Positions 247 to 20,697 of a DNA stretch of 52,713 bases are shown here, piece by piece. The stretch is taken from positions 1 through 52,713 of the IMG/VR virus record IMGVR_UViG_3300045971_000144, one strand, 5' to 3'. Origin of the DNA: a virus. The position numbers were made by a program, and so were the translations under genes. The notes beneath the pieces were generated by a model. That model was not told the origin of the DNA. It searched no databases and worked only from the letters and a program-made list of their open reading frames with translations. Numbering within the stretch: the stretch's first letter is position 1; each line of letters begins with the position of its first letter.

Positions 247-939
247 ATGGTAGTCAAAACAGCACAACCAGTTTTCTCAACTTTGGACGTCGTCGTGGCA
301 GTAACCATGGCGTATAAAGCAAATGGTAACAAGATTGAAAAATACAATGTATCCGCTGTACAAGCTGACGATTATCGGCCTGGATCTGCTGCGATTACAA
401 GCAATAAGGATCTCGCTATTGGGTATCTGGATTTTGCTACGAACTTTTCGGAGCAAGACCGAGAAGACGCGAAGTCGCTGGTAAGCTACTTACAGCAAAA
501 AAACATGCTTGACATGTTGACTGGCAAGAAGGTTAGCTCGTTTACACGTGACTTGGTTGCTGCACTTGAAAAAGAAGAAACGCTGAAAAGCGGCATTGGC
601 TTGCTCGTGTATGCGCCAAGTTTGCATGCGACTGGTCAAGCTCGTGATGCAGTGGCTGAGAAAACCGCAGAGTGCTCGTTTGAAAGCAAAGCGTTAGGCC
701 ATGTTGGCGAAAAGATTACTGTAAACTTTACACTGCTTGAAGATCGTTACATTGTGCAACTTGATTGCTATGCCGCATACGGCACTGACGATAACCACAA
801 CCTGGTGTCGTTTTTAACCAAACATAAACACTTGGTGCGGTCAGGTAAATTTACTGCTAAGGTTAAAAGTGCTGCCAACGATAAGTGGCATGGTAACGCG
901 ATGGTTACTTCACTGAACTTTGTGAAGGCTGCGGCTTGA
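247..939 (+). CDS. Unknown phage protein, 230 aa
   Basis: A full-length frame of 230 codons starting at ATG 247. The sequence is soluble, with no signal peptide or membrane segment. The C-terminal half (CSFESKALGHVGEKITVN onward) has the alternating pattern of a beta-rich domain that binds or coats something, and ends in a lysine-rich stretch. The family is not recognised; single-stranded nucleic-acid binding is one possibility but nothing in the sequence proves it. Its last 35 bases overlap the convergent gene on the minus strand, which marks the end of this + strand unit. Confidence 0.6.
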   Translation: MVVKTAQPVFSTLDVVVAVTMAYKANGNKIEKYNVSAVQADDYRPGSAAITSNKDLAIGYLDFATNFSEQDREDAKSLVSYLQQKNMLDMLTGKKVSSFTRDLVAALEKEETLKSGIGLLVYAPSLHATGQARDAVAEKTAECSFESKALGHVGEKITVNFTLLEDRYIVQLDCYAAYGTDDNHNLVSFLTKHKHLVRSGKFTAKVKSAANDKWHGNAMVTSLNFVKAAA

Positions 940-1255
940 ACAATGTCTCGCCTGGGTGATTTTCACGCTCATGCTGCTCAATGAGTGTTAATCGTTGTTC
1001 AAGTTTAATACTTTCTTCTTCATTGTGCACTAAATGCTTATAAAACACAGTAGTTAATCCAAATACTATTGTAATTAAACAAACTAAAAGACTAATTATA
1101 ATGTCTTGAACCCTTGTTTGTCTTCTGTCAGGTGCAACTCTCCGCAATTTAATTGCACGAGAATCCATAGATGATGCTAATCTTGCGGCGGCGTTATCTA
1201 AATCTTTTGTGCCCAAATCGTGTTGAGCTTTATCAGTTGCGGGTGATTTACCCAT
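905..1255 (-). CDS. Small single-pass membrane protein with C-terminal coiled coil
   Basis: 116 residues on the minus strand, start ATG at 1255 with a strong ribosome binding site (GGAGGAG about 7 bases upstream). A polar, basic N-terminal half is followed by one clear membrane helix (IIISLLVCLITIVFGLTTVF, about residues 52-71) and then a charged heptad-like tail (EEESIKLEQRLTLIEQHE). A cytoplasmic N terminus and periplasmic coiled-coil tail would resemble an inner-membrane spanin, but the cytoplasmic part is unusually long. It overlaps the upstream membrane gene by 8 bases and converges on the + strand gene before it. Its function is not established. Confidence 0.6.
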   Translation of the reverse strand: MGKSPATDKAQHDLGTKDLDNAAARLASSMDSRAIKLRRVAPDRRQTRVQDIIISLLVCLITIVFGLTTVFYKHLVHNEEESIKLEQRLTLIEQHERENHPGETLFKPQPSQSSVK

Positions 1256-1691
1256 AATTAACTCCTCCCGTCAAGTGGTTCACTTGAGAACCAAGTCTCG
1301 CATTATCAACTGCTAACTTGTTCATTTCAGTTTTTGCAGTGTCTAAACTTAATGCTAACTTTTCCACAAGTGCTTTCAACTCTATAACTTGCACTGATAA
1401 AAATTCAACCTGGGCAGTTAGTTTGCCAACTTTAGCAATTGCCTCGTTTCGTTCTGCTTCGATTACACCTAACCGCTCCATAAGCTTGTCGCGGTCTTTT
1501 TTAATTTCATCCCGCTCAGTTTTAAACGAGTTAATAAGATCAATGTGTGATTTATCATCACCGAGAGTTTTAGAGTCAGCAGACATACGACGGCGTATCA
1601 TTGATACGCCATACGCTATCACTACAGTAATTGACGGGACGCCAACTGCCCAGGATAAAATATCGTTAGCTAACTGTGGTTCATTTGCCAT
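1248..1691 (-). CDS. Membrane-anchored coiled-coil protein (spanin-like architecture)
   Basis: 147 residues, ATG at 1691. A short N terminus is followed by one membrane helix (about residues 11-31, AVGVPSITVVIAYGVSMIRR), then a long, highly charged coiled coil from about residue 50 to 135 with regular leucine and valine spacing. This is the layout of inner-membrane spanins and of some holin-associated proteins, but no sequence motif fixes the assignment. It overlaps both minus-strand neighbours (11 bases upstream, 8 downstream), so the three genes form one translationally coupled membrane-protein unit. The phage's recognisable lysis genes (endolysin, holin) lie about 7 kb away on the other strand. 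Confidence 0.6.
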   Translation of the reverse strand: MANEPQLANDILSWAVGVPSITVVIAYGVSMIRRRMSADSKTLGDDKSHIDLINSFKTERDEIKKDRDKLMERLGVIEAERNEAIAKVGKLTAQVEFLSVQVIELKALVEKLALSLDTAKTEMNKLAVDNARLGSQVNHLTGGVNYG

Positions 1692-2118
1692 AATTATTCC
1701 GAAACAAAGACCACACCGAGAATATAGTCATTGTAATTTGTGCAGACCAAATTGGTGGCCAATTGTGGTCTAATAAAAAATACGCAACCATAATAATAGA
1801 CGTTGTGGTTGTCCATAACAACGCGGCAAGCAATGAGTCAAATACCACGAACCATTTGTTTTTCGTAGCAGTTACGAGCCCAACGAATCCAAAAACACCC
1901 TGTATTAAAAACAAAAGCAACCACATGTGCGAAGGCATTACAGATGCTAACAAATCTTGCGCTGGAGATATTAAATGAAAATTGTCATTAGGAATAAGTG
2001 CTATCCCTATTAGGGCTGCCCATATCAATGAGGCTATGCACAGCATCACGCGAAACATAAAGAATTCATCTACTTTACGCAGATTATTTTTTATATTTGA
2101 TTTTGTTAATATGCTCAC
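1681..2118 (-). CDS. Polytopic membrane protein, about four helices
   Basis: 145 residues starting at a GTG (2118) that is placed by an AAGGAG ribosome binding site six bases upstream. It has hydrophobic helices at about 20-42, 60-82, 88-112 and 118-138, with short charged loops and positive ends. Size and topology would suit a holin, antiholin or superinfection protein, but no family motif was recognised. It is the first gene of an overlapping run of three membrane-protein genes and lies downstream of the large inverted repeat at 2198-2286. Confidence 0.6.
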   Translation of the reverse strand: MSILTKSNIKNNLRKVDEFFMFRVMLCIASLIWAALIGIALIPNDNFHLISPAQDLLASVMPSHMWLLLFLIQGVFGFVGLVTATKNKWFVVFDSLLAALLWTTTTSIIMVAYFLLDHNWPPIWSAQITMTIFSVWSLFRNNYGK

Positions 2119-2290: not shown

Positions 2291-3088
2291 TTATTCGTCT
2301 CCGTAAATCTTCAGGATCTCTCCAACCGCTGCATGTCGTTGTATGTCCCTCCTAGTAAACTCAACGCCAAATATGTATTCATGCCCGCGGAAATTCTGCG
2401 ACCTAATTTGGAAGTCCATTAACCCGTTTGAGTTAGCTTGCCTGTCAGTTTGCTGTATGTCTCCAGTTACAACCAACCTGCAATTCTCCCCAATCCGTGT
2501 CAGCAACATCTTCATCTGCGATGGTGTTGCGTTTTGCATTTCATCTGCAATGATCCATGCATTCTTAAATGATCTTCCTCTCATAAAAGCTAATGGTGAT
2601 ATTTCGATAGTCTCCTCCTCTAACATCATCGTAATCTCTCTTGGTGAGTAATACTCTTTCATCACATCAAAAATTGGTCGTGTCCACGGTTCCATTTTCT
2701 CATTGAGTGTACCTGGAAGGAAGCCATGCTTCTCATCGTCTACACCAACTGCTGGACGGGTGATAATGATTTTCTGGATCACCCCCTCTTTTAATGCCTT
2801 GATCGCTGCGAGAACAGCTAACATGGTCTTACCCGTACCTGCAGGGCCTGTCGCAAACACTATCAATTTTGCTGGATTCTCTAGTAAATCTATATACTCC
2901 TCTTGGGCTATGCTCTTTGGTATCAATGCAACAGTCTTACGCTTACTTACAAATGAATTAAAATTTACGATGTTCTCGTTTGTAAACGGCTTCTTCATTC
3001 CTTTGTGTGGTGTTGTATGACGTGGTCTCTCCATTTCAATCTCTACTTGTCTAGCACTCGATTGCTGCACATACTTACGTTTAGCCAA
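2291..3088 (-). CDS. phoH: PhoH-like ATPase
   Basis: 265 residues of the PhoH family, P-loop NTPases found in bacteria and very often in marine and freshwater phages; the cellular role is unsettled (RNA metabolism or phosphate-stress response have been proposed). Walker A is GPAGTGKT at 81-88, the Walker B region is IIADEMQNATPSQMK near 180, and the family blocks RPAVG, LPGTLNEKM and TRIGENCRLVVTGD are all present. The start is TTG at 3088, chosen because AAAGGAG lies eight bases upstream and no better start exists. The first 45 residues are a basic, disordered extension. It is transcribed leftward and followed at once by the inverted repeat at 2198-2286. Confidence 0.93.
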   Translation of the reverse strand: MAKRKYVQQSSARQVEIEMERPRHTTPHKGMKKPFTNENIVNFNSFVSKRKTVALIPKSIAQEEYIDLLENPAKLIVFATGPAGTGKTMLAVLAAIKALKEGVIQKIIITRPAVGVDDEKHGFLPGTLNEKMEPWTRPIFDVMKEYYSPREITMMLEEETIEISPLAFMRGRSFKNAWIIADEMQNATPSQMKMLLTRIGENCRLVVTGDIQQTDRQANSNGLMDFQIRSQNFRGHEYIFGVEFTRRDIQRHAAVGEILKIYGDE

Positions 3089-3212: not shown

Positions 3213-3746
3213 TTATCGAGACCACTCTGCGTATATACGCCTGCCACTGTCCCAGCGACACTCTTTCAAGTTAAACCCAAACTTAATCGCTAGCCTAATC
3301 TGTTCTTCTATCGACCAAGGGTAAAACGGTATCTCTCCACACTTGTCATTGTTGTGGTCCGCCCTGCCAGGATTACAGCGCCAATAAATCCTTGCTGTTG
3401 GATTTAACCACGAAACAACTTTAGTGATTTGCGCTTCGATATCGTCAACTGATCCAAAATTTATGCTACCCAAGCAAAACGCGACATCAAATTTTGTATC
3501 AGGCATAAAATCCTCTATTGATATTCTAATGTCAGCAGCATCGTTAGCTGGGTCAATTCCAATCAAGTTTGGGATTTTTCCCTTAAACGGGTTGTATCCG
3601 CAGCCAACGTCAATGACATTTTCGCTAGGCTTTACTTTGTGTGTCAATGCCCAGCCAGAGAACTCGTACTGATCTATGTTTGACTTCCATGTGTGTTCGA
3701 AATAAGTGTTTAATAAGGTTTGGTTTTTCATCAAGATATTTAGCAT
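3213..3746 (-). CDS. SAM-dependent methyltransferase-like protein
   Basis: About 177 residues with a class I Rossmann methyltransferase core: motif I VIDVGCGYNPFKGKIPN, an acidic strand end LIGIDPAND for the adenosyl ribose, and a post-II block FDVAFCLGSINFGS. The substrate is unknown; glycan or small-molecule methylation is as likely as nucleic acid. The start is uncertain: TTG 3749, ATG 3746 and ATG 3731 are in frame and none has a clear Shine-Dalgarno. The divergent + strand gene begins only about 15 bases away, so the two starts share one very short control region containing AATAAATAC. Confidence 0.65.
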   Translation of the reverse strand: MLNILMKNQTLLNTYFEHTWKSNIDQYEFSGWALTHKVKPSENVIDVGCGYNPFKGKIPNLIGIDPANDAADIRISIEDFMPDTKFDVAFCLGSINFGSVDDIEAQITKVVSWLNPTARIYWRCNPGRADHNNDKCGEIPFYPWSIEEQIRLAIKFGFNLKECRWDSGRRIYAEWSR

Positions 3747-3763
3747 CAATAAATACTACTATA

Positions 3764-4342
3764 ATGAATACTCTACCCACCCACATATTTTTTACAGGTG
3801 TTCCTGGATCACGTTGGTCAGGCATTGCACAGACACTAGAATTGTTAGCAGGAATAAACACCAGTGACCACAATGATTCCAGACGATACTCGCATGCTGG
3901 GTTTGGTGGACACTCTGGTGTTTACTACGGAGAGGGAATGGAGTTTCCTGCTACATTGACTGCGTTAGATACATCAGCATGGCAAACTCGCGGTGGCTGT
4001 AAGATTGTAAAAAGCCACGATTGGGCGTATAATCTAAATAGCATTAAGCAAATGTATTCTAATGTGTGGATCATGCTTGTTTACCGTCCAGACAAGGCAA
4101 GCTTTGACTGGTGGAAGGAAGCGGGTGGTTTTGACATTAAGTACCCAAGTTATGTTTGGTACGAGAATGATGAGAAAATGATGGCAGAGATTAAAAAGCA
4201 AAACGAATGTATTTTAGAATTTGCTGAAAAACATAAGGCCAATTGGTCGCAATTTGATAGTTTATGGATACGAGAAAACTTTGATCAATTTGTATCAGTT
4301 GATAAAGTTTGGCCAGACATTATGGTTGCATTGATAAAATGA
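3764..4342 (+). CDS. Sulfotransferase/P-loop-like phage protein
   Basis: 192 residues. The N terminus HIFFTGVPGSRWSGIAQTLE looks like a P-loop of the sulfotransferase kind (strand, glycine-rich turn with GxPGSRWS, helix), and LVYRPDKASFDWWKEAGGF resembles the later phosphosulfate-binding region (R/D followed by an aromatic-rich helix). Acceptor and donor cannot be named. Start ATG 3764 is preferred because the frame upstream of it is antisense to the methyltransferase gene. A late-type box (AATAAATAC, 3748-3756) sits so close that the mRNA would be almost leaderless. It couples to the next gene through an ATGA overlap. Confidence 0.6.
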   Translation: MNTLPTHIFFTGVPGSRWSGIAQTLELLAGINTSDHNDSRRYSHAGFGGHSGVYYGEGMEFPATLTALDTSAWQTRGGCKIVKSHDWAYNLNSIKQMYSNVWIMLVYRPDKASFDWWKEAGGFDIKYPSYVWYENDEKMMAEIKKQNECILEFAEKHKANWSQFDSLWIRENFDQFVSVDKVWPDIMVALIK

Positions 4343-4872
4343 TTTTAATACTGTATACTGGAGGTGCTGCTGGGAATTTGGTAGCAGCAATAATAGATAG
4401 CAGTCAATTTGTATTTAACAAATGGCATTTTGAATTCATTGACAATTCACCGCTTGCTAAATGGAAGTTTGGCTGCCCCACTTGGCAAACGACTGCTGAT
4501 AAATGTCAAGATCTTGACATAATGGATTTGGATTTTAACAGCGTAAGTAAAAATTATAAATCATTGGCAAGTCATCAACATAATTTTCATATAACGCGGA
4601 AACATGAATTTATTCTAATAGATTCATCCTCTTTACAATCCGCCCAATGGTGTGTGGATAGATTCCGCAAAAATACAAATTTACCATCATCACATGCGGT
4701 ATTTGAACTTGAAAGAAAAATAAAAATCAGTAAAAATCTTGCATTACACACTAACAAAATAATTAAACTTGAAGACATCATAAATGGGAAACTGATTGAA
4801 ATAATGAAGCAATGGACTGATCTTCCATTAAATGATGAGCTTTACAAAATGTGGTTGGATGCTAATGTTTAA
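4339..4872 (+). CDS. Unknown phage protein with glycine-rich N-terminal loop
   Basis: 177 residues starting at ATG 4339, which overlaps the preceding stop as ATGA. The N terminus MILILYTGGAAGNLVAAIID is a hydrophobic strand followed by a glycine-rich turn and helix, similar in layout to P-loop or sulfotransferase-like phage proteins and to the gene at 25867-26769. The rest is polar and includes the helix-rich end IIKLEDIINGKLIEIMKQW. It sits between the sulfotransferase-like gene and tctA (3-base gap), so it may be co-expressed with the transporter. Function unknown. Confidence 0.55.
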   Translation: MILILYTGGAAGNLVAAIIDSSQFVFNKWHFEFIDNSPLAKWKFGCPTWQTTADKCQDLDIMDLDFNSVSKNYKSLASHQHNFHITRKHEFILIDSSSLQSAQWCVDRFRKNTNLPSSHAVFELERKIKISKNLALHTNKIIKLEDIINGKLIEIMKQWTDLPLNDELYKMWLDANV

Positions 4873-4875
4873 ATC

Positions 4876-6333
4876 ATGAACTTATTCATCACATACCTTC
4901 CATTTTTACTTGCAGGCACATTGTACGGGTTCGTCTTTGGACTTATTCCTGTTGCAGGAGCAATGACTGGGCTGCTGACAGTTTACAGCTTTATTGGAGT
5001 GTTTGGGCACGACCCATACGCAATGGTTGTTTTTACAACGGCGTTGGTGGTAGCATGTAGTATAGGTGATTTATTCTCAAGCATCGTCATGAACATACCT
5101 GGTGCTGCTGGTAGCGCAGCGACGATGGTAGACGGTTTCCCAATGAGCAAAAAGGGGCAGGCGGCACGAGCGTTAAGCGCAGGTATTTTTAGCAGTGTTG
5201 GGCAGGGGTTAGTGTGGGGCACGTTAGTATTTTTGTTCTTGCCGTATTACGCTCCCGTGGTGTTGAGCTTTGGTATACCTGAAATGCTAATGTTCTTAGT
5301 TTTCTCTATGGCAAGTGTCACCTTTATCAATAGCCACCATTGGGGCAGAGGGTTGATTGCGTTAGGTGCTGGTGTATTTTTAGGGTTAGTGGGTCTTGAC
5401 CCAACAACTGGTGCGGCGAGGTTTACGGGTGGGTGGTACTACTTAGCGGACGGCATACAGTTGATACCAGTGATTGCTGGCTTCTTGGCTGTGCCTGAAA
5501 TCGTGGAAGCATTGTACTTTAAGATTAAACATGTTCCACCACCTAAAAACAATCTCGAGCAAATACGGCAAGGCATGAAGGATTCGTGGCGATATAAATG
5601 GGACTCGTTCCGCGGTGGGCTCATTGGTGGTGCAATTGGCTTACTGCCTGGCATTGGCGGGGCAATATGCGATTGGATGGCGTACGGGCAAACTGTTGCG
5701 CTGGCTAAGAATGACAAGATTCCGTTTGGTGAAGGCAATGTGCGTGGCGTGGTTGGTCCAGAGGGATCTGCGTTAGCACAAAAAGCGACCTCGTATGTGC
5801 CTACAGTGTTGTTTGGTGTTCCTGGGGCGCCGTTTGAGGTTATCGTGATGTCGCTGTTCATGATGATGGGACTGGAGATGGGCACAGTAGAAACGCTAAC
5901 AGACGCGAAGTTTTTTAGCTCGCTAAGTTACGGGTACATGGGCAGCTTATTGCTAACATTTGGTATTGCACTGGTGTTTATCAAGTACGCAAGCGGCATA
6001 ACTAAAATTCCTATGAAGTTTTACTTCATCCCTATTCTAGGTGTGATTGTGTGGAGTAGCGTACAATACACTGGTGGGTGGGAAGATTACGCGATGGTGT
6101 TTTTGTGTAGTGTTGCTGGCTTGCTGTGCAAACATTACAAATTTAGTAGGATCAGTTTGCTCATTGGGTTTATACTGGCAGGCAGATTAGAGAAAAACTT
6201 GATACAATACACCTCGCTGTATGACTGGGCTGATGTTTTCACTCGCCCCATTAGCTTAGTTATCATTGCGATGACATTAGTGGCAATCGTGTACGGCATC
6301 TTCTTTAACAAAGCAAAGATTAACTACGTATAA
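4876..6333 (+). CDS. tctA: TctA-type large membrane subunit of tripartite tricarboxylate transporter
   Basis: 485 residues, close to the usual size of about 500 for TctA, the 12-helix permease of the tripartite tricarboxylate transporter (TTT) family, which imports citrate and other carboxylates with a periplasmic binding protein and ion gradient. The family's two homologous halves are visible: FGLIPVAGAMTGLL at about 21-34 and IGLLPGIGGAICDW at about 254-267. Other family blocks are SIVMNIPGAAGSAATMVDGFPM, SFGIPEMLMFLVFSMASV and GVPGAPFEVIVMSLFMMMGLEMG. The reading frame is intact over its whole length with many membrane helices, so it looks functional. It is followed by tctC; no small TctB subunit gene lies here. 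It is a host-type metabolic gene in a phage context. Confidence 0.93.
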   Translation: MNLFITYLPFLLAGTLYGFVFGLIPVAGAMTGLLTVYSFIGVFGHDPYAMVVFTTALVVACSIGDLFSSIVMNIPGAAGSAATMVDGFPMSKKGQAARALSAGIFSSVGQGLVWGTLVFLFLPYYAPVVLSFGIPEMLMFLVFSMASVTFINSHHWGRGLIALGAGVFLGLVGLDPTTGAARFTGGWYYLADGIQLIPVIAGFLAVPEIVEALYFKIKHVPPPKNNLEQIRQGMKDSWRYKWDSFRGGLIGGAIGLLPGIGGAICDWMAYGQTVALAKNDKIPFGEGNVRGVVGPEGSALAQKATSYVPTVLFGVPGAPFEVIVMSLFMMMGLEMGTVETLTDAKFFSSLSYGYMGSLLLTFGIALVFIKYASGITKIPMKFYFIPILGVIVWSSVQYTGGWEDYAMVFLCSVAGLLCKHYKFSRISLLIGFILAGRLEKNLIQYTSLYDWADVFTRPISLVIIAMTLVAIVYGIFFNKAKINYV

Positions 6334-6336
6334 ATA
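6329..6336 (+). promoter_or_regulatory. T4-late-type promoter box upstream of tctC
   Basis: TATAAATA, an exact match to the T4 late promoter -10 element, overlaps the tctA stop codon and lies 92 bases before the tctC start. It would let the binding protein be made separately from, and more abundantly than, the permease at late times. The assignment is by sequence match only. Confidence 0.55.
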
Positions 6337-6356
6337 AAAGTGCTTACTTAGAAAGA

Positions 6357-6388
6357 GTACAATGTTCACCAAGGTGAAAACATCGTAC
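6357..6388 (+). promoter_or_regulatory. Stem-loop in the tctC leader
   Basis: GTACAATGTTCACC pairs with GGTGAAAACATCGTAC (6357-6370 against 6373-6388), about 12 pairs with a two-base bulge and a small CAAG-type loop. It lies between the late-type box and the tctC ribosome binding site (TAGGAG at 6415-6420), so it would sit in the 5' untranslated region of tctC mRNA; it could stabilise the transcript or partly stop read-through from tctA. Confidence 0.5.
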
Positions 6389-6427
6389 AGTCATACAACG
6401 TAAGTGACATTTTATAGGAGAAATCAC

Positions 6428-7492
6428 ATGTCAAAATTGAAGAGCATTCTCATGGCCGTTGCTTTGGGAATTTGTAGCATTGCACAAGCTGAATACCAAT
6501 TCATTGTGCCGCAAGAGCCTGGTAACGGGACGGATATTTGGGCTCGTATTGTAGCCCGTGAGATGAGTAAGAAGTTAGGCGAGGAAATTACAGTAGTTAA
6601 TATTCCTGGTGCTAACGACATTCCTGGGTTCAACAAGTTCCACAACTCATTGCGTAAAGACAACAAGGTAGTGATGGTTGCGCACGGTGGCAACGCAGAA
6701 AGTTATCTGTATCAGCAAGTAGACTACGATTATAAATTGTACGATCCCGTTGGACTACAAAACATTACAGTGATGATTGGCCGCAGATCTGATATGGATG
6801 TGTACAAGGATGTTATTAAATTTCCATCAGCGTCAGGTACTAATCCAGACATTATCGCAATGACATTGTTGGTGTGTGGCCCAGGCAAGACGATGAAAGA
6901 GTACGCAGCTTGTTACAAAGAGCACTTTAGGTATGTGAACGGGATGACGGGCAACGAGCGTAGACTTGCTTATTTCCGTGGCGAGTTAAACTCAATTCGT
7001 GAAACACCGTCAGCGTATATAAAGAACGTTACTAAGTTTGAGAAAAACGTGGACTGGTTTAATCCTGGTGTATTAGACTTAGCGTCAGGCAAAGTAGTAA
7101 CTGATGTAAACTTTCCTAAGGTAACGTTTGCTGATGTGTACAAAGCTAAATGGGGTGTGGCGCCGTCTGGTGACTTGTACGATGCGTGGTTGTTAGTTAA
7201 AAACTATCGTGACGTGCTACAGAAAGCACTGTATGTAAACAAGGGCAACCCAAATCGCGCAAAACTCATCCAAGCCCTACAAGCTACGCTAGCTGATCCA
7301 ATCAGCCTAGCAGCAATTGAGAAAGAAACGGGTAAATATCAGTGGATTATTGGCGATGATGTTAATAAAGCCCAAGCTACGTTAGAAAAGCTTACTACCA
7401 AGAAAGCACTTAAAGATTTAGTTTGGTTCACTGGTACAGTGCTCGGCAAAGAAGCTATTTACAAAGACAACATAGCAGCAAAAGCACATTAA
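6428..7492 (+). CDS. tctC: TctC-type periplasmic solute-binding protein of the TTT transporter
   Basis: 354 residues beginning at ATG 6428, eight bases after TAGGAG. A type I signal peptide is clear: basic SKLKS, hydrophobic ILMAVALGICSI, cleavage after AQA at residue 21. The mature start EYQFIVPQEPGNGTDIWARIVAREM matches the family's ligand-loop block (usually PGGGTD), and GEEITVVNIPGANDIPG matches the second (usually NxPGAGG), so the fold is recognisable but both loops differ from the usual form. It is about 30 residues longer than typical TctC. It would capture a carboxylate in the periplasm and deliver it to TctA. The ligand cannot be predicted. Pairing with tctA in the same order as in some bacterial operons supports a functional transporter, but tctB is missing. 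Confidence 0.85.
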   Translation: MSKLKSILMAVALGICSIAQAEYQFIVPQEPGNGTDIWARIVAREMSKKLGEEITVVNIPGANDIPGFNKFHNSLRKDNKVVMVAHGGNAESYLYQQVDYDYKLYDPVGLQNITVMIGRRSDMDVYKDVIKFPSASGTNPDIIAMTLLVCGPGKTMKEYAACYKEHFRYVNGMTGNERRLAYFRGELNSIRETPSAYIKNVTKFEKNVDWFNPGVLDLASGKVVTDVNFPKVTFADVYKAKWGVAPSGDLYDAWLLVKNYRDVLQKALYVNKGNPNRAKLIQALQATLADPISLAAIEKETGKYQWIIGDDVNKAQATLEKLTTKKALKDLVWFTGTVLGKEAIYKDNIAAKAH

Positions 7493-7554: not shown

Positions 7555-8136
7555 ATGACAACTAGCATACATACAGCACTTGAGAACGTTAAAGAAATCT
7601 ACATGTCGGATTCGGCATTAGCAACGCTTCTCGATTTTGAACGGGTCATTGACGAGTTAGACGTATATGCGTTTGCTAACTGGAAAATGGGTGAATTAGT
7701 AGCAGGTCCAGAGTATGAAAAATACTTTGTTACATGTACTTTTATGTGGCCACACAAGAAAATGCCTGATCCACGTGGTGGTGAGCAATTGCTTAATTAT
7801 AACTGTGAAGTCTTGTACAAGAAAGACGAGTTGGAATACCCAGTGAAGCCAAAATCTCCAGAAGATTTTAGACCTGGTACGAAAATGGCAAAGACTAAAC
7901 GTGTGCCAATATGGTTAGTTACGGTCACAATGCCTAAACAGTTGATGGCTGACATTCACAGAGGTTCAATTGAGTTAGAAAATGACAAACTTGATTTAGA
8001 GGATGTTGAACAAGCATACGAAACTGGCCAAGACGAGGCTGATGTACAGAACGACCAAGGTCAAGACCCAATGGGCGGTGAAGCACCAAATGCTCCTGAC
8101 CAAATGCAAGGAGGCATGCCAAATGTCCCACAATAA
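7555..8136 (+). CDS. Conserved-looking phage protein, possibly structural
   Basis: 193 residues. The N-terminal 150 residues form a soluble domain with patterned beta strands (YFVTCTFMWPHKKMP, RVPIWLVTVTMPKQL). The C terminus is acidic and then a disordered Gly/Pro/Gln/Met tail (MGGEAPNAPDQMQGGMPNVPQ region). No catalytic motif is seen. Position behind a late-type box and directly before the endolysin and holin suggests a late gene, perhaps a virion or assembly protein. It overlaps the next gene by 14 bases. Confidence 0.55.
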   Translation: MTTSIHTALENVKEIYMSDSALATLLDFERVIDELDVYAFANWKMGELVAGPEYEKYFVTCTFMWPHKKMPDPRGGEQLLNYNCEVLYKKDELEYPVKPKSPEDFRPGTKMAKTKRVPIWLVTVTMPKQLMADIHRGSIELENDKLDLEDVEQAYETGQDEADVQNDQGQDPMGGEAPNAPDQMQGGMPNVPQ

Positions 8137-8689
8137 TATATTTGAAGGTATTGAGATGGGCGACTTAGCCCGCCTCATTAATCCTGTAATGTCAGTGGAC
8201 GAGTTCCGCAGCAAGATGGGAGAGGACAAAGACATTATCGTAGTTGGATTTGTGGTGATGAGCAAGTTACCAGCGTTAGACTTAGTTAACTTCTTAGAGA
8301 AGAGCTACGATTGGGTGCTAGACGCAGACGTTAGCTCTGGTGAAACTGCGAATGGCAACTACTATGTGTTCGTTGAAATGCAACGTAACGCAAATGCTAT
8401 TAAGAACATTATGCAAATGCTTGAGGATATGATGAACCTCACAGAGCAAAAGCTAGAAGACTGGACTTTTACTTACATCAACGACCCAAAGGAAGTTCCA
8501 GTTACGTTAGAAAACTTGCAAGCTAAGATTATTACTGACCCGTCAATGTACGAGGCCAAGACGAGCGATGCAGTGACTGAAGCAGCATTGTTTAACAATT
8601 TACGTGCACTAGCTGGTGTGCAAACTAAACCGCTAGGTATTGTTAACCCACAGATTTTAAGCATTCAACGTGCAGCAGGGATAAAATAA
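8123..8689 (+). CDS. Unknown late phage protein
   Basis: 188 residues from ATG 8123, preceded by AAGGAGG in the 3' end of the gene before it (about 8 bases upstream), which settles this start over the longer open frame. The sequence is mixed alpha/beta with no signal peptide; a central block DWVLDADVSSGETANGNYYVFVEMQRN looks like part of a compact domain, followed by a helix rich in Met and Leu. The overlap with the previous gene implies coupled translation and perhaps a shared structure. Function unknown. Confidence 0.6.
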   Translation: MSHNNIFEGIEMGDLARLINPVMSVDEFRSKMGEDKDIIVVGFVVMSKLPALDLVNFLEKSYDWVLDADVSSGETANGNYYVFVEMQRNANAIKNIMQMLEDMMNLTEQKLEDWTFTYINDPKEVPVTLENLQAKIITDPSMYEAKTSDAVTEAALFNNLRALAGVQTKPLGIVNPQILSIQRAAGIK

Positions 8690-8690
8690 A

Positions 8691-9341
8691 ATGGCAACAC
8701 CTTTTGACTTTGACTTTACATTAGAGCAAGCAACAGAAATTTTAGCAAACAACCCAGAGGTTGACCAGTGGTATGCTGCATTAGTTATGGTGCTGCCTGA
8801 GTTTGACATTTACACTCGTAAACGTGTAGCTGCGTTTTTAGCGCAAACAGCACACGAGTCTAATAACTATACTGCGTTACACGAAAACTTAAACTATCGT
8901 GCAGCATCACTAATTAAAACATGGCCTAAGCGTTTTGACGAAGCGTCAGCAGCGATTTATGAGCATCACCCAATACTGATTGCTAACAAAGTGTATGCAA
9001 ACAGGATGGGTAATGGCGATGAAGCAAGCGGCGATGGTTGGACTTATAGAGGTCGCGGCATTGTGCAAATTACTGGTAAAGACAATTACAGCGCATGCAG
9101 CATGGCTTTATACGGCGACTTACGTTTAATTGATAATCCAGAATTACTGGAACAAGATAAGACGGTGGCAGTACAGTCAGCATGCTGGTTTTGGAACTCA
9201 AAGGGCCTTAACGAATTAGCTGATGAAGATAAGATGAGCGATATCACGTACCGTATTAACGGTGGCTATAACGGTGCAGACGATAGAAACAATCGTTACG
9301 CTGCCGCAATGACATTCTTCCAAGACGACAGCGTAGCTTAA
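8691..9341 (+). CDS. GH19 (chitinase-class) endolysin
   Basis: 216 residues of glycoside hydrolase family 19, the lysozyme-like fold used by many phages to cut the peptidoglycan glycan chain. The catalytic glutamate region is AFLAQTAHESNNY with Glu56 as likely acid, followed by the family blocks YANRMGNGDEASGDGWTYRGRGIVQITGKDNY and TYRINGGYNGADDRNN. There is no signal peptide, so release depends on a holin, and a holin gene follows 43 bases downstream. The start ATG is one base after the preceding stop. No cell-wall-binding domain is attached. Confidence 0.9.
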   Translation: MATPFDFDFTLEQATEILANNPEVDQWYAALVMVLPEFDIYTRKRVAAFLAQTAHESNNYTALHENLNYRAASLIKTWPKRFDEASAAIYEHHPILIANKVYANRMGNGDEASGDGWTYRGRGIVQITGKDNYSACSMALYGDLRLIDNPELLEQDKTVAVQSACWFWNSKGLNELADEDKMSDITYRINGGYNGADDRNNRYAAAMTFFQDDSVA

Positions 9342-10675: not shown

Positions 10676-13600
10676 ATGATTAATTCAAGCCCAGAAGTAG
10701 AACTTATTGTCAGCAACGCAAGCAACTATGCTAAAGAGCAAAAGCACGAATATGTGACTTTAGAGCATTTAGCATTAGCGTTAGTGCAGCATCAAGAGTT
10801 CAACGATCTTTTAGTTAAACTCCACATTGATGTCAACGGCATCGAGAATGATTTAAAAGAGCATATCAATGCACAGGCTTACTTAGTAAGCGTTGACCCA
10901 GCGTATGAGTCCCCTAAGCGAACTCATGCTTTAGAGCGTGTGTTTAACCGTGCGTTTACACAGGTGCTATTCAGTGGCCGCACTAACATGCTGGTGGCTG
11001 ACATTTACATTAGTTTGACTAGTGAGAATCACAGTCAAGCGCAGTTTATATTTTCACGCTATGGTATCAACCCACAAGACTTGGTTAAGTTTTACAAGAA
11101 GAACTATAACGAGGCTAAAGGTAGTAAACTCGCAACTTCGCATAAAGCAGATTCTATACTGGACGAGTTTTGTACTAACCTAAACGAAAAAGCAATCGCA
11201 GGTAAGATTGATCCGGTGATTGGGCGTGACGATGAACTGGCAGAGATTACTGAAGTATTAGCAAAGCGTAACAAAAGCAACGTGCTCATGGTTGGTGACC
11301 CAGGCGTTGGTAAAGCCCAGCCATTATATTCTAAGGTCAAAACCCCGTCAGGGTGGACTACTATTGACGAAATTAAGGTTGGCACAACAATTACTGCTCA
11401 TGATGGCAAAGATACCACGGTGATAGGCGTGTTTCCCCAAGGAAAAAAAGAGATATACGAAATTGTGTTTGCTGACGGTCGTACTGCTAGATCGTCCATA
11501 GACCATCTATGGACGATCTATGGGAAATTTGGTGAAGCATATACTACACCCGGAGGATGGAAGAGTAAACGTGTAGGCCCCACGACAATGGAATTGTCTG
11601 CAATTATTGAGAAAAGCAAAACTAATAAATCTTATATTAAAGGATTGCATATCCCGTTAATTTCACACCAGTACGATAAACAAAATATCGAGGTTCCAAT
11701 TGCTCCATACCTATTAGGAGCGTTAATTGGTGATGGGTGTTACGCTCCAACCAAAATGGGGTTTACTAGTGCCGATCAATTTATGGTTGATAAAGTTGCT
11801 ACTCTTCTGCCAGACAATTGTTTTATAAGCCAATCCGGAAAGGTAATTGATTTTAAAATTAATGGGAGAAATTTATCTGAAAAGTTCATTCCTGGTGGCA
11901 GTAGGTATAGAGGGCAGACACCAAATCCCTTAAAGGAAAAATTAATCGACCTTGGAATTTATGGACAGAGAAGTCATGAGAAATATATACCAGAACAATA
12001 TTTTAATTGCTCGAATCAGCAAAAGATTGAACTGATACAAGGATTGATGGACACAGATGGCTATGTAGGCAAAAATGGGACATTACAATATACTTCAACC
12101 TCATTCACTCTTGCTAATCAAGTAGTCGAATTAGTTCGCAGCATCGGAGGTATCGCAACCATACGTGCAAAAATTAATAACACATACTTATATAAGGGTG
12201 AACGGGTTTCATGTAAAGATGCATATACTGTTAACATTAGATACTACCAGCCTAATTCTTTAGTTACATTGCCAAGGAAACTTGAAAGAATTAGCAAAAA
12301 TTATCAATACAGCAATCTAAGACTTGGCATTTCTGACATTAAATATGTGGGTGAAGAAGAATGTAAATGCATAATGATCGACCATCCAGATCATTTATAC
12401 ATCACTGACAATTATGTCGTGACCCATAACACTGCGGTGGCAGAAGGGCTTGCGCTACACATTACACAAGGTGTAGTGCCAGAGTATCTTAAAGAGTTTA
12501 CTGTTTACAATCTTGACATTGGCTCGCTGCTCGCAGGTAGCAAATACAGGGGAGAGTTTGAAGAGAAGTTGAAAGATGTTTTACGTGCGTTAGAGACTAA
12601 GGGCAATACTATATTGTTTATTGACGAAGCGCATCAAATGCGTGGTGCTGGCGCAGGTGGTGGCGGCAGTAGCGTAGACTTTGCTAACATGATTAAACCA
12701 GCGTTAAGTAAAGGTAACATCAAAGTTATTGCGTCAACAACATGGGAAGAATACACGTCATCGTTTGAAAAGGATCGTGCGTTGATGCGGCGTTTTTACC
12801 GCATGAACATTACTGAGCCAACATCTGAAGTGGCAGTAAACATTCTCAACGGATTAAAATCGCATTTTGAGAAATTCCACAAAGGTAAGATTACAGACGA
12901 AGCGATTGACGCAGCAGTTAGTTTGAGCGTTAGATATCAGACTGACAAACGATTGCCAGACAAGGCTATTGACTTGATTGATACTGCGTGTGCTAAGAAG
13001 CGCATACTTGGTAAGCAGTTTACTATTGGCCGCGGTGAGATCGTGGAAGTGTTAAGCAAGATTACTAAAATTCCAACGGACCAAATTGGTGTTGACCAAT
13101 CAACTTCTTCAGCATCGTTAGTTAACTTAGAAGCTGATCTCAAGACTAAGTTATACGGGCAGGATCAAGCAATCGACGAAGTATTAGACAAGATTTATGT
13201 TGCTAAGTCAGGCTTGAAAGCATTGGATAAGCCAATGGGCAGTTTCTTGTTTATTGGCCCAAGTGGAGTAGGTAAGACAGAGCTTGCTAAACTGTTGGCT
13301 GCAAACTTGCAAATGAAACTAATCCGCTTTGACATGTCAGAGTATCAGGAAAAACATACAGTAGCAAAACTTATTGGTGCGCCTCCTGGCTACGTTGGCT
13401 ACGAGGATGGCAACTTGGGTGGCGGCTTACTTGTTAGCGAGATTGAGAAGAATCCTAACTCTATTGTGCTGTTTGATGAAATAGAAAAAGCACACCCAGA
13501 TGTGTCTAACGTTTTGCTGGCACTTATGGATGAAGGTGCAGTTACATCAAGTAATGGTAAGAAAGCAGATGCTCGTAATACTATTGTTATTATGACGTCT

Positions 13601-14092
13601 AACTTGGGTGCTGCTGAAAGCGAGAGGAATAGCATCGGGTTTGGTAATATTAAAGATCGTTCCGGTGAAGATGACAAAGCAATTAAAGAGTTCTTTAAAC
13701 CAGAGTTCCGCAATAGACTCGATGGCATTTGTAAGTTTAAGAAACTTGATGAACTTAGTATTAAGCGTGTTGTGCACAAGTTTATGGCTGAAGTTGAAGA
13801 GTTGTTGTCAGAGAAGAAGATTAAAATCAAGCTCACTGAAGCGGCTGTTGACTTCTTGGCTAAAGAAGGCTTTGACCCGGCGATGGGTGCACGGCCAATG
13901 GCACGTAAAATACACACGTTGATTAAAGTGCCGTTGAGTAAGAAGATTTTGTTTGAGGGTGTGTCGGCAAAAGCGTTAGTAATGGTTGATGTGGTTGATG
14001 ACAAAATAGTGCTTAAAGTTATAAACGCCACAGTGTCTCCAGAACAAGCAGTAATTGACGAAAATGGTTTCATCCAAATACCAATGGCGTAA
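10676..14092 (+). CDS. clpA: ClpA-like AAA+ unfoldase interrupted by an intein
   Basis: 1138 codons in total; removal of the 372-residue intein leaves 766 residues, the size of ClpA (758 in E. coli) and too short for ClpB, whose long middle domain is absent. Order: Clp N domain (HEYVTLEHLALALV), first AAA module with Walker A GDPGVGK at 207-213 cut by the intein before Thr586, Walker B TILFIDEAHQMRGAG, second module with GPSGVGKTELAKLLA near 861, IVLFDEIEKAHPDV, and arginine finger FKPEFRNRLD. An IGF tripeptide at 987-989, just before that finger, is where ClpA and ClpX carry the loop that docks ClpP, so the product may feed host ClpP. Until splicing, the first ATP site is non-functional. Confidence 0.93.
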   Translation: MINSSPEVELIVSNASNYAKEQKHEYVTLEHLALALVQHQEFNDLLVKLHIDVNGIENDLKEHINAQAYLVSVDPAYESPKRTHALERVFNRAFTQVLFSGRTNMLVADIYISLTSENHSQAQFIFSRYGINPQDLVKFYKKNYNEAKGSKLATSHKADSILDEFCTNLNEKAIAGKIDPVIGRDDELAEITEVLAKRNKSNVLMVGDPGVGKAQPLYSKVKTPSGWTTIDEIKVGTTITAHDGKDTTVIGVFPQGKKEIYEIVFADGRTARSSIDHLWTIYGKFGEAYTTPGGWKSKRVGPTTMELSAIIEKSKTNKSYIKGLHIPLISHQYDKQNIEVPIAPYLLGALIGDGCYAPTKMGFTSADQFMVDKVATLLPDNCFISQSGKVIDFKINGRNLSEKFIPGGSRYRGQTPNPLKEKLIDLGIYGQRSHEKYIPEQYFNCSNQQKIELIQGLMDTDGYVGKNGTLQYTSTSFTLANQVVELVRSIGGIATIRAKINNTYLYKGERVSCKDAYTVNIRYYQPNSLVTLPRKLERISKNYQYSNLRLGISDIKYVGEEECKCIMIDHPDHLYITDNYVVTHNTAVAEGLALHITQGVVPEYLKEFTVYNLDIGSLLAGSKYRGEFEEKLKDVLRALETKGNTILFIDEAHQMRGAGAGGGGSSVDFANMIKPALSKGNIKVIASTTWEEYTSSFEKDRALMRRFYRMNITEPTSEVAVNILNGLKSHFEKFHKGKITDEAIDAAVSLSVRYQTDKRLPDKAIDLIDTACAKKRILGKQFTIGRGEIVEVLSKITKIPTDQIGVDQSTSSASLVNLEADLKTKLYGQDQAIDEVLDKIYVAKSGLKALDKPMGSFLFIGPSGVGKTELAKLLAANLQMKLIRFDMSEYQEKHTVAKLIGAPPGYVGYEDGNLGGGLLVSEIEKNPNSIVLFDEIEKAHPDVSNVLLALMDEGAVTSSNGKKADARNTIVIMTSNLGAAESERNSIGFGNIKDRSGEDDKAIKEFFKPEFRNRLDGICKFKKLDELSIKRVVHKFMAEVEELLSEKKIKIKLTEAAVDFLAKEGFDPAMGARPMARKIHTLIKVPLSKKILFEGVSAKALVMVDVVDDKIVLKVINATVSPEQAVIDENGFIQIPMA
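11315..12430 (+). mobile_element. Intein with LAGLIDADG homing endonuclease inside the Clp Walker A motif
   Basis: The 372-residue intein starts at Ala (AQPLYSKVKTPSGWTTIDEI) and ends with YVVTHN, followed by Thr as the +1 residue. The splicing blocks are visible: block A as above, block B SIDHLWTIYG (usually with a TxxH; here SxxH), block F ECKCIMIDHPDHLYITDNY and block G VVTHN. In the middle are two LAGLIDADG helices, YLLGALIGDG at about 131-140 and LIQGLMDTDG at about 239-248 of the intein, so the endonuclease is probably intact. Insertion between Lys and Thr of the P-loop is a typical choice because the site is invariant in targets. Ala instead of Cys or Ser at position 1 implies the alternative splicing route known for Ala1 inteins. 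Confidence 0.9.
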
Positions 14093-16899: not shown

Positions 16900-19800
16900 A
16901 TGTTCACCACTGAGTTATTTGAAGACCAAGCCAAAAATGTTAAGGTAATTTACCCCGGCAGGTTCCAGCCTTGGCATTCTGGCCACGCCGCTGTCTATAA
17001 CCACTTAGTCTCTAAATATGGGCTGAATAACGTATTCATCGTGACAAGCGACAAGCAGGACGGTGATAAATCCCCATTCTCTTTTGAAGAGAAGAAACGC
17101 ATGATGATGCTAACTGGCATTGATCCAAGCCACATCGTTATGTCTACACAGCCATACAGGGCAATGGAAGTAGTATCAACGTTTACCCCTGATACAGTAT
17201 TATTGTTTGCCGTTAGCGCAAAGGATATGGCAGAAGATCCTAGGTTCCAGTTTGCCCCAAAGAAAGATGGTTCGGCATCGTATTTTCAACCCTTTACCGA
17301 CATAAAGAAATGTGTCCCATTTGCTAAACATGCGTATATGGTCACAGTTCCAACATTTACTTTTACAGTGTTAGGTAAGCCAGCAAATAGCGCATCGCAA
17401 ATTCGTGCCCAGTTTGGTGCTGCTGACGATGAAACACAGAAGAAAATCGTAGCCGATTTATTTGGCAAATTTGACCACAGAATATATACTATCATGCGTT
17501 CCAAGTTAGTTCATAATCCTGCTCCAGTCACTGAAAGTAAAAATGCTAAATCGGAATTTACTGTTGCTGATTTTAAAATAGCACGGTTTGAATCATGGAC
17601 TGACTATACAAGATTCTTATCTGGACACAAGACATCTAAGCGAGATACCGTATGGAATTGGCCAACCGGAGTTGCGAAATTATTATCACCAAGTAAAAGT
17701 TGCTTACTGTCGGAATCCGCAGACACGAAGAACGATCGTTTATTAGCAAGGCAATTTTCTACTAGATTTAAGGCATTAGATCAAAGAGATTCTGTTATTA
17801 TTAAAAAAGGTAACTCAATAAGTGTTTTATCGTCAGTATTAGATCTAGACAAAAAGTCAATTGAATTACGCGGTTTTGTTAAATCGAAGAAAATTGTAGC
17901 TATCAACACAAATGCCGACGGATCTATAGATGTAATTGAATTTGACGACGGGTCTCAGTTTCCAGAACGTAACGAACTAACTTATGTGTTTAACCAAGAT
18001 ATTACTAACACAATATTTTTTGCTGATGAGTCGTCATCTAGTAGGGCGTATACTGAAATTTGGATGATGATGTCGTCAATGGAAGGTAGCGGATGGAATA
18101 TATCCAATCAATTGTCAGAATCGTCAATCAATGAAAGTTACACCTATTCAACTACTGACCCAGTAGCAAATGCTGATGAAGCGCAACGTATAGCAGATTT
18201 AAAAAGATTACGTGGCATGTTTAACGGCAACGAAAAACGTGCTCGCTACTTGGATAGCAAAGGATTGTTAAAAGCAACAAAAGCAGAAAAAGAATTCTTA
18301 TATAAAATGACAGATGCGTTAGGCAATCTCCGCCCGCGTATTGGAAATATGGAACAACCACAAACAGAGGCAGTAGTCAATGATGAATCTAAGATATTGG
18401 CTCACCTTGAAGAACAATTTGGCGAGATATACCCCCTTGGTACTACTATTAACGGAAAACGAATAAACTCGTTGACTGCTAACAAAAAATTATATTTGCA
18501 TTTGGCTGAAACAGAAGGTGGGCGCGGTATTGATTTTTATAATAGGCTTATTGCAGTTAAATTGCATTTGGCAAGCGGTATTCCTCTAACCGAGTCAGTT
18601 AAAGTCAACGAGGTAAATCCTTTATTTAGATTATTGGATACTTTTAACAACCCACACCAGGTGCAAGTTGGTGACAAATTATCAATCATTGAAGTATCGG
18701 CTTGGGTAAATGCCATCTACCTGGATGGATTTATTAAACAAAAAGAAGTAGTCGAAATTCATGCTGGAGCATTCGTTTTCAGTGACGGGTCATCGTGGCC
18801 CCAAAATACTTCGATAGTTCGTCAAACAAGCACAACAAAGCAATGCCTTTATTTTCATTCAAAATCTGATGCCGAGAAATGTCTAACTGCTATTTTAATG
18901 TTTGGAAATAAAATCGGTGACTGGGCAATACATAACGAGATAACAGAGGAAACTATGACAATCACAACTAACGAATCAGCAAACGACGCAGAATACTTTG
19001 ACAACTGGCACAAATGGGATCAAGCAGTGCGCCGCGCTGGTGGAACCACTGAACACTCAGGTGGCGGTAGATACAATGCTATTTGGATGGACGGAGAAAG
19101 TTTCGGTCTTTGGGATGAAAATACTGGTGAAGGCTACATTGACTATGAACAAGAGCAGCCATATTTAGGAAACAACGACTCGTTGGGTGAAGATACTCAA
19201 GTTGATGAAGCACGTGGTGACACTATTGAGGCACACGGCATACGTGGTATGAAACGTCAGCCGTGGAGACGCTCTTTTAAAGACTACGCAGCGATGGAAG
19301 CATGGTGCGAAAAGTATGATGCTGAAGTTTATGGCACTCGTGACACAGATGCTGCTAAACAAGGTAAGTTGGCCCCTGCTATGGGCAGTGATGAACAAGT
19401 AAACGAACTTAGCACAGGCACATTGAACAGGTATGTTGGCAAAGCAAAAAATGCTGTGCCAGCAAACTTACACCAAGCAAGCAACAGGATACATGGCATT
19501 ATGAAAGCAAAAGAAAAAGAGCATGGACGCAAAGTGGATAGCGACTTAGCACGGAAGGGCGACCCGCGCATGCAAGCTGAAGGTTACTGGCAAGACTCAG
19601 TAAAAGCAGTAGAGAAAAAGCGTGAAGCAGAAAAAGGCAAAACGTTTGAAAAGAACCCAGCAAGCCACGACAGAAACGGTGTATACAAAGGCGACAAAGA
19701 TTTGGCAGGTAATCCAGTTCCTAAGAAAGTTGATGAGGCTGGCAAAAAAGGCACGTCTGCTCATGCTAAGGAAGTTGCAGCTAAAAGTAAGAAGTATTAT

Positions 19801-20697
19801 GACGACCAAGCATTGAAAAACGAAAAAGCCGGTGAAACTTATAACTATGGTAACGCTAAAGTTACTAAGCTAACAGTTCCAGAAAGTAAACTTGGTGGTG
19901 TGCCATGGGGACCTATTGCTAACGAAGGTAGATTTGTCAAAGGCCCAGGTGGTGTGCCATTGGATCGCCAAGGCAATCCTATCCCGCCTAAAGTTAAAGA
20001 GCCACGTGCGCCAGCTGGTCCACGTCGTGACAGCAACGGCTTGACTAAAGAAGATTACAGCAAAGTATGGCGCAAGATTGAAGATGTAGTAAGCAACATT
20101 TTCCCAGACGGTGATCCTATTGACTGGCTTGCTCCTTGGTTAAACAGGTCAGGCATTAGAGACCATCATGTAGGTGAAGTGTTAGACAAAGCATCTAGGA
20201 TGAATGGATATAAAGACATCTATGCTTACTATGACTCGTTCAAGTCAGAAGATTACGGGTATAATCAAGGTGTGAAAGAAGGTGTTGTTGATTCCGTCAG
20301 AGCAATGAACTATAATCGGTTAGCAAAACGATCAGGTAACAAAGTAGATAATGCATTCGATAAAATGCACGATTACGATTTTACAGATCCAGATAGATTC
20401 CCACATGAAAAGGAATTTGCTGATCAGATGGATAAAAAAACACAACGACTCAATAAAGCCAAGCAGTTGGGCGCGGCAGATAAAGAGCAAGGTGTGAAAG
20501 AAGAGCAAGTCAATGAACTTAGCATTGATACATTAGAAAAATATGCTACCGCAGCTAACAGGAATCGCTCAGCAGTATCAGCTACACACATGGCACAGCA
20601 TAAATGGGACCCAAAAGTAGTTGACAAGATGGATCGCAGAGCTGATCATAGTATGAACGCATTGCACAAAGCAGATAACAAGAGAGCAGCAAAATAA
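16900..20697 (+). CDS. Large probable capsid-internal protein with N-terminal nucleotidyltransferase domain
   Basis: 1265 residues. Residues 1-8 (MFTTELFE) resemble T4 capsid targeting peptides, with LFE|D as a possible prohead-protease cut. Residues 14-200 form a cytidylyltransferase-like nucleotidyltransferase: YPGRFQPWHSGHAAVYNHL carries the HxGH motif and SASQIRAQF the C-terminal SxxxIR motif; NadM/NadR-type enzymes are the nearest match in layout, but the substrate is unknown. The remaining 1000 residues are polar, low in cysteine and broken by many short (I/L/V)xE sites (LTES, VNEV, ITEE, VDEA, VNEL twice), as if cleaved after assembly. EQVNELSTGTLNRYVGKA near 830 and EQVNELSIDTLEKYATAA near the end are internal repeats. 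Role: inferred head core protein, possibly injected. Confidence 0.75.
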   Translation: MFTTELFEDQAKNVKVIYPGRFQPWHSGHAAVYNHLVSKYGLNNVFIVTSDKQDGDKSPFSFEEKKRMMMLTGIDPSHIVMSTQPYRAMEVVSTFTPDTVLLFAVSAKDMAEDPRFQFAPKKDGSASYFQPFTDIKKCVPFAKHAYMVTVPTFTFTVLGKPANSASQIRAQFGAADDETQKKIVADLFGKFDHRIYTIMRSKLVHNPAPVTESKNAKSEFTVADFKIARFESWTDYTRFLSGHKTSKRDTVWNWPTGVAKLLSPSKSCLLSESADTKNDRLLARQFSTRFKALDQRDSVIIKKGNSISVLSSVLDLDKKSIELRGFVKSKKIVAINTNADGSIDVIEFDDGSQFPERNELTYVFNQDITNTIFFADESSSSRAYTEIWMMMSSMEGSGWNISNQLSESSINESYTYSTTDPVANADEAQRIADLKRLRGMFNGNEKRARYLDSKGLLKATKAEKEFLYKMTDALGNLRPRIGNMEQPQTEAVVNDESKILAHLEEQFGEIYPLGTTINGKRINSLTANKKLYLHLAETEGGRGIDFYNRLIAVKLHLASGIPLTESVKVNEVNPLFRLLDTFNNPHQVQVGDKLSIIEVSAWVNAIYLDGFIKQKEVVEIHAGAFVFSDGSSWPQNTSIVRQTSTTKQCLYFHSKSDAEKCLTAILMFGNKIGDWAIHNEITEETMTITTNESANDAEYFDNWHKWDQAVRRAGGTTEHSGGGRYNAIWMDGESFGLWDENTGEGYIDYEQEQPYLGNNDSLGEDTQVDEARGDTIEAHGIRGMKRQPWRRSFKDYAAMEAWCEKYDAEVYGTRDTDAAKQGKLAPAMGSDEQVNELSTGTLNRYVGKAKNAVPANLHQASNRIHGIMKAKEKEHGRKVDSDLARKGDPRMQAEGYWQDSVKAVEKKREAEKGKTFEKNPASHDRNGVYKGDKDLAGNPVPKKVDEAGKKGTSAHAKEVAAKSKKYYDDQALKNEKAGETYNYGNAKVTKLTVPESKLGGVPWGPIANEGRFVKGPGGVPLDRQGNPIPPKVKEPRAPAGPRRDSNGLTKEDYSKVWRKIEDVVSNIFPDGDPIDWLAPWLNRSGIRDHHVGEVLDKASRMNGYKDIYAYYDSFKSEDYGYNQGVKEGVVDSVRAMNYNRLAKRSGNKVDNAFDKMHDYDFTDPDRFPHEKEFADQMDKKTQRLNKAKQLGAADKEQGVKEEQVNELSIDTLEKYATAANRNRSAVSATHMAQHKWDPKVVDKMDRRADHSMNALHKADNKRAAK

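Follow-up and report, generated by a model that had tools for sequence, protein, structure and literature searches.

A phage-borne TctA-TctC pair without a detectable TctB belongs to a virus-dominated lineage linked to methyltransferase-like and sulfotransferase-like genes

Results

The window examined here is the whole of a 52.7-kb virus record (IMGVR_UViG_3300045971_000144; 52,713 nt), a single metagenomic contig that holds phage DNA polymerase, PhoH, virion structural, and Clp-like protease genes. Near one end are adjacent genes for a TctA-type permease and a TctC-type periplasmic binding protein, preceded by genes for a SAM-methyltransferase-like protein, here termed MT, and a sulfotransferase-like P-loop protein, here termed UP1 (Table 1). 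The pair is flanked by PhoH and virion genes, with the DNA polymerase and Clp-like protease encoded farther along the window. Phage genes are found on both sides in the window and in its relatives, which places the pair among viral auxiliary metabolic genes and bears out the phage context proposed in the initial annotation.

Table 1. Features of the tctA-tctC locus in the window
Feature	Position	Strand	Size	Remarks
PhoH-like ATPase	2291..3088	-		phrog_170, E=1.7e-75; phage flank common to nearest relatives
SAM-methyltransferase-like protein MT	3213..3749	-		cassette partner
Sulfotransferase-like P-loop protein UP1	3641..4342	+		cassette partner
ORF between UP1 and TctA	4309..4872	+	187 aa	motif LILYTGGAAGN
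TctA-type permease	4876..6333	+	485 aa	ATG start; intact
TctC-type periplasmic binding protein	6428..7492	+	354 aa	signal peptide; ATG preceded by AGGAG
Two virion structural genes	7555-8136 and 8003-8689	+		phrog_12928, phrog_13138; opposite phage flank

PhoH homologues adjoin the cassette in five related loci (L002, L003, L004, L012, and L026), and the order of the two virion genes is kept in relatives. Two of these loci, L002 and L003, come from separate assemblies. In both, a TctA 75% identical to that of the window and a TctC-like gene are bounded by PhoH/MT and, at the opposite end, by the two virion genes seen in the window; the flanks of L004, L012, and L026 are similar. Since the pair has the same phage flanks in L002 and L003, the pair in the window is not a chimera, and the contamination joined in assembly that the initial annotation had allowed for is excluded.

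The ORF between UP1 and TctA had no homologue in 80 related loci, and hence is not conserved in the cassette. It had no Pfam or PHROG match, and its motif suggests that it is possibly another P-loop transferase. On both sides of the cassette are ORFs that may serve in lysis (905-2118, minus strand, and 8691-9341): three encode small membrane or coiled-coil proteins, and one is endolysin-like. Farther along, the Walker A motif of the Clp-type ATP-dependent protease frame (10676-14092; phrog_4871) is split by an intein-like insert of residues ~195-590 that ends in VVTHNT and matches PHROG families of terminases, primases, and helicases, which may themselves contain inteins. In a 1265-aa ORF at 16900-20697, assignment is confined to the first 70 residues, which match an APS-kinase-like family and a family of phage cytidyltransferases.

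The permease is full length, as originally described: Pfam PF01970 is matched over its entire length at 267 bits against a cut-off of 28.9, and a crude scan gave approximately 12 hydrophobic segments. The glycine motif of TM7, GGLIGGAIGLLPGIG, is intact in the window, and the corresponding glycine-rich pattern was matched in 159 of 174 viral TctA sequences. TM1 has P-V-A-G instead of P-G-x-G, and P-x-A-G is the form in 173 of the 174, though the strict P-G-hydrophobic-G pattern also failed in 11 of 33 cellular controls. Twenty-three positions are conserved in the viral and cellular sets alike.

The neighboring gene encodes a secreted TctC-type protein, again as first annotated. A GTG at 6404 offers an alternative start (ORF 6404-7492). 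The signal peptide looks cleavable, between ...SIAQA and EYQF, and recurs across the family. The protein scored 19.3 bits with PF03401, under the cut-off of 27; a long cellular TctC scored similarly low (18.9 bits), and the low score therefore looks like a trait of the branch. The family profile matched BugD (E=6e-5). The first 17 Foldseek matches of the AlphaFold model (pLDDT 92) were all TctC-type binding proteins, and VIA-align gave Z scores of 18.4-22.1 with BugD, MatC, TphC, AdpC, and Bug27, the next fold reaching 13.6. As modeled, the product of 6428-7492 has the TctC fold. The loops QEPGNGTD and PGANDIPG, which had been taken as altered, are both present. The clade consensus is PQKPGGGTS and PGARDIPG, which marks QEPGNGTD as a local variant, seen in the window and the relative closest to it; the alteration is partly a trait of the whole long-TctC branch, cells included. 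The D of PGxxD is invariant across the viral TctC clade.

Relatives of the viral TctC were found by profile and neighborhood searches; a single-protein scan with over-strict peptide patterns gave none. Where a viral TctA is present, it nearly always adjoins TctC. The two genes were on the same strand in all 88 loci having both, and usually overlapped or nearly so, with a gap of 10 bases or fewer in 69. Pairwise omega values (NG86, non-identical pairs with computable dS) were 0.03-0.21 for tctA and 0.04-0.20 for tctC, indicating purifying selection that is as strong on tctA as on tctC. Only 3 of 141 distinct viral TctA frames collected, a set that includes contig edges, were shorter than 440 aa. 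Both frames are thus open in related phages; their disruption there had been named in the initial annotation as an outcome that would count against it.

That annotation was confined to the pair and overlooked the chief finding, namely the linked MT and UP1 genes (3213-4342) and the larger family to which the module belongs. MT carries motif I as VIDVGCGYN (VLDVGCGYN in the family) with a downstream acidic GIDP. It scored 17-24 bits with Methyltransf_23, under the cut-off of 27, and its profile matched PDB methyltransferases at E 1e-4; assignment as a trans-aconitate methyltransferase was dropped, as none was among these profile matches. UP1 probably begins at the ATG at 3764, which leaves 14 bases between it and the divergently oriented MT. 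Its family has the motifs TGAPGSKWS...KSH...VYR, with a weak Sulfotransfer_3 match in 7 of 27 members. The five best VIA-align entries for the UP1 model (pLDDT 85) were tyrosylprotein sulfotransferases, with Z scores of 9.8-10.4, and nucleotide kinases reached 8.5, yet Foldseek returned nothing significant (E 0.08 or worse); sulfotransferase-like is therefore a fair name for this predicted P-loop protein. Low profile scores and fold resemblance lead us to call the two proteins methyltransferase-like and sulfotransferase-like. A further family often found in related cassettes, f4, is termed dioxygenase-like solely from an HxD...H...R pattern; it had no useful Pfam or PDB match, and was not found in the window.

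Linkage of these genes recurred among viral loci. In the first 81 TctA loci, a TctC-like gene was present in 78, MT in 77, UP1 in 73, and f4 in 46. The corresponding counts in a second TctA-selected set, with 3-kb flanks, were 77, 64, 48, and 46 of 79; the two sets share some contigs, and so their counts are not independent. Gene order and strand vary within the cassette, and the flanks fall into approximately 16 gene backgrounds (grouped at a 25% sharing threshold). A scan with UP1 gave at least 580 viral relatives. Among the best 80 of these loci, nearly all had MT within 6 kb, approximately 12 had tctA, and approximately 30 had a different TctC-family protein, c13, which scores 85 bits with PF03401. 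A scan with c13 gave 174 relatives, and the best 80 of these loci had MT in 75, UP1 in 71, and at least one of the two in 77; none of the 80 had tctA within 4 kb. In the TctC tree, c13 falls on the classical side as a viral clade separate from the viral TctC described above, and phages have thus brought TctC-type proteins into association with these enzymes on at least two occasions. MT and UP1 are also found without a recognized TctC-type protein, so the enzymes do not strictly need an importer: 24 of 40 records had both with no PF03401 match in the record, although two of these (L150 and L155) nonetheless hold a low-scoring viral TctC, and 38 of 80 MT loci had no PF03401-type protein within 5 kb.

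Two other families accompany these enzymes. In many phages with MT and UP1 (among L084-L160; for example, L125:8231-8779 and L141:11198-11656), there are also genes for an amidotransferase of the Peptidase_C26 type, c14, and for an APS-kinase-like protein, c38, a set that we take to resemble that for capsule phosphoramidate synthesis in Campylobacter. A small DUF6552 membrane protein of ~76 aa adjoins UP1 at L016:11225-11470, in 44 other loci, and in Marine virus AG-345-D19.

The absence of TctB from the window, claimed at the outset, extended to all 40 viral records searched: none had a PF07331 match, and some exceed 100 kb, though most are fragments. The control genomes did give matches. A crude hydropathy scan found no recurrent small multi-TM gene near tctA. 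A 145-aa membrane ORF at 1681-2118 (minus strand) was considered as TctB and rejected, as it has no homologue in other TctA loci and adjoins lysis-like ORFs. TctB is poorly conserved, of unknown role, and able to escape sequence searches (PMC5812351), so a diverged viral TctB could be missed. The same review describes TctAB fusions as rare and notes that archaea have TctA without TctB (PMC5812351). The nearest cellular TctA proteins have TctB fused rather than free. With neither a TctB match nor a recurrent small membrane gene, we file the pair as a two-component relative of the tripartite tricarboxylate transporters (TTT), not as a canonical tripartite system.

A TctA-profile scan of IMG/VR found at least 414 viral contigs with this lineage; a scan of 84,980 bacterial and archaeal species, with peptide patterns closely similar but not identical, found it at 2 loci. 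One, L083:1-7878, is a 7.9-kb contig labeled Candidatus Pelagibacter that has the viral cassette in full, with proteins 82-87% identical to the best viral match, and is therefore probably a misbinned phage contig contaminating the metagenome-assembled genome. The second locus, L082, is a contig from Omnitrophota that bears ordinary cellular genes, and on it the TctA-TctC pair lies between SAM methyltransferases and a gene for a B12-binding radical SAM protein. This region (L082:2362-7944), with its viral-clade pair, two SAM methyltransferases, and radical SAM protein, is a possible cellular relative of the module. No other close cellular relative was present in 384 Omnitrophota genomes or, beyond the Pelagibacter contig, in 299 Pseudomonadota genomes. 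The best remaining TctA in the latter scored 316 bits, whereas the Pelagibacter contig scored 793 and L082 scored 666. The best match in a plasmid search had only 34.7% identity. Of 398 Pseudomonadota genomes searched for UP1, 397 lacked it, and the remaining one owed its match to the same Pelagibacter contig. Single-protein searches of INPHARED phages returned nothing for TctC or MT and, for TctA, distant matches only (24-31% identity). UP1 matched once, in Marine virus AG-345-D19, where a profile added a weak MT match.

In the TctA tree, all viral sequences and L082 formed one group (SH-aLRT 100) set off by a long stem; its sisters were cellular TctA proteins with lengths of ~614-697 aa. A TctB-like C terminus was found in three of four of these cellular proteins tested, below the curated cut-off. 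The TctC tree had the same split, with viral TctC sister to the long TctC that partners TctA-TctB fusions. Both trees were quick builds, and the program flagged long branches. As both proteins are sisters of the branch with fused TctAB and long TctC, the pair descended together. A phylogeny had been proposed for finding the donor host; no recent donor was seen, and the genome scan, which gave no close cellular relative, led us to reject recent transfer from a bacterium. By these comparisons, the pair is not a recent bacterial pick-up; it belongs to a long-lived, virus-dominated lineage under purifying selection.

In Thalassospira marina, the cellular sister genes adjoin tcuB, a 4-oxalomesaconate tautomerase gene, and an isocitrate-dehydrogenase-type gene, and by analogy these neighbors hint at a tricarboxylate-like ligand for the viral protein. 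A carboxylate ligand is plausible from such kinship.

Discussion

The above considerations make it probable, in our judgment, that the pair is a two-component importer lacking TctB that takes up an anionic metabolite and is coupled to enzymes using or modifying that metabolite. Family membership and gene linkage point to import, to a di- or tricarboxylate-like anion as the ligand, and to coupling with the enzymes; the importer would also be independent of TctB. After export, the TctC-type protein would occupy the periplasm of the host, which given such export is presumably Gram-negative, and there would capture an acidic metabolite. Driven by an ion gradient and needing no separate TctB, the viral TctA would then move the metabolite into the cell. 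MT and UP1 made by the phage, joined elsewhere often by the dioxygenase-like protein, may act in the same pathway, and would most simply use or modify the imported compound. We extend this more tentatively, at somewhat less than even chances, to tailed phages in general: a module for acquiring and modifying a metabolite, composed of a TctC-family protein with MT and UP1 and often the dioxygenase-like protein, might take up and convert its substrate, with the form bearing a permease working without TctB. In this broader proposal, phages would have taken the TctC-family protein from different cellular branches on at least two occasions, and it may or may not be accompanied by a permease of its own. 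The initial interpretation is supported in part, as to a phage pair lacking a detectable TctB, and is not supported as to a recent bacterial donor.

Several other readings were weighed against these. The pair might only boost uptake of a common carbon source such as a citrate-like compound, with the enzymes being unrelated neighbors in a variable region; TTT transporters are mostly carboxylate importers (PMC5812351), and the cellular relative in T. marina adjoins genes of tricarboxylate catabolism. We consider this unlikely, although worth keeping in mind, because the same two enzymes accompany two separately derived TctC lineages in approximately 16 backgrounds with changing order, which is not expected of chance neighbors. 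A requirement of the viral TctA for a TctB, supplied by the host or encoded undetected by the virus, would make the system an ordinary tripartite transporter of phage and host parts. The rapid divergence of TctB leaves room for this, but the 40 records, the fused rather than free TctB of the nearest cellular proteins, and the archaeal TctA homologues reported without TctB (PMC5812351) make it a distinctly unlikely arrangement.

We likewise see only a slim chance that TctC acts mainly as a periplasmic sensor or scavenger, with TctA secondary and the enzymes altering an envelope or signaling molecule. Phages with c13 do keep MT and UP1 with no adjoining TctA, and possible sensing roles have been discussed for orphan TTT binding proteins (PMC5994714); on the other hand, selection on TctA matches that on TctC, and the viral permease is seldom found apart from its binding protein. 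Bacterial contamination or chimeric assembly might be suspected, given the abundance of TctA genes in bacteria and the fact that the window is a single metagenomic contig, but the common phage flanks of the related loci and the near absence of the clade from cells make the probability negligible.

Import coupled to use or modification of the metabolite remains our preferred reading. A lineage that is nearly virus-only and usually accompanied by the same enzyme genes suggests that many phages bring their own uptake system for an acidic nutrient. What would otherwise be labeled a phage nutrient gene becomes a testable pathway of one binding protein, one permease, and two or three enzymes. Selection maintains the lineage across hundreds of viral contigs, and two TctC lineages are tied to one enzyme pair; the lineage also offers a natural set of TctA-TctC systems for asking whether TTT transporters need TctB.

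Viral tctA has appeared in the literature as a domain match of unknown function in SUP05 viral contigs (PMC4164917), a mention repeated in a review (PMC6359870), and "tricarboxylate transport" has been annotated near viral norB and nirK (PMC8115048). The relevant passages of PMC4164917 and PMC8115048 give an isolated domain match and a neighboring annotation, respectively, and describe no clade, linked TctC, or cassette. Our search of open PMC papers likewise found no description of an MT/UP1/TctA/TctC cassette. Single viral tctA matches are thus already published.

The viral pair resembles the canonical TTT systems, TctABC of Salmonella and BctABC of Bordetella, in having a TctA-family permease, a TctC fold, adjacent genes, and a signal peptide. 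It differs in that no TctB was found with it, in the P-x-A-G of TM1, in the invariant PGxxD and RE residues of TctC, and in its placement within a phage cassette with transferase-like genes. The cellular TctA-TctB fusions with long TctC, such as those on pCSC3H3 of T. marina, are the sister branch for both proteins and have related motifs around GGGTxxW and RLAFxRGE; the viral TctA, in contrast, ends before the TctB part, and the viral proteins have ~31-35% identity to these relatives and other gene neighbors. The Omnitrophota locus L082 likewise has a viral-clade TctA and TctC without an adjoining TctB and with flanking SAM methyltransferases, but it lies on a cellular contig with neither UP1 nor the viral MT, and its methyltransferases are of another family and accompanied by the B12-binding radical SAM protein. 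The orphan Bug/TctC proteins, including AdpC and the Bordetella Bugs, are matched by the phage c13 in lacking a neighboring permease; unlike them, c13 is phage-borne and linked to MT and UP1.
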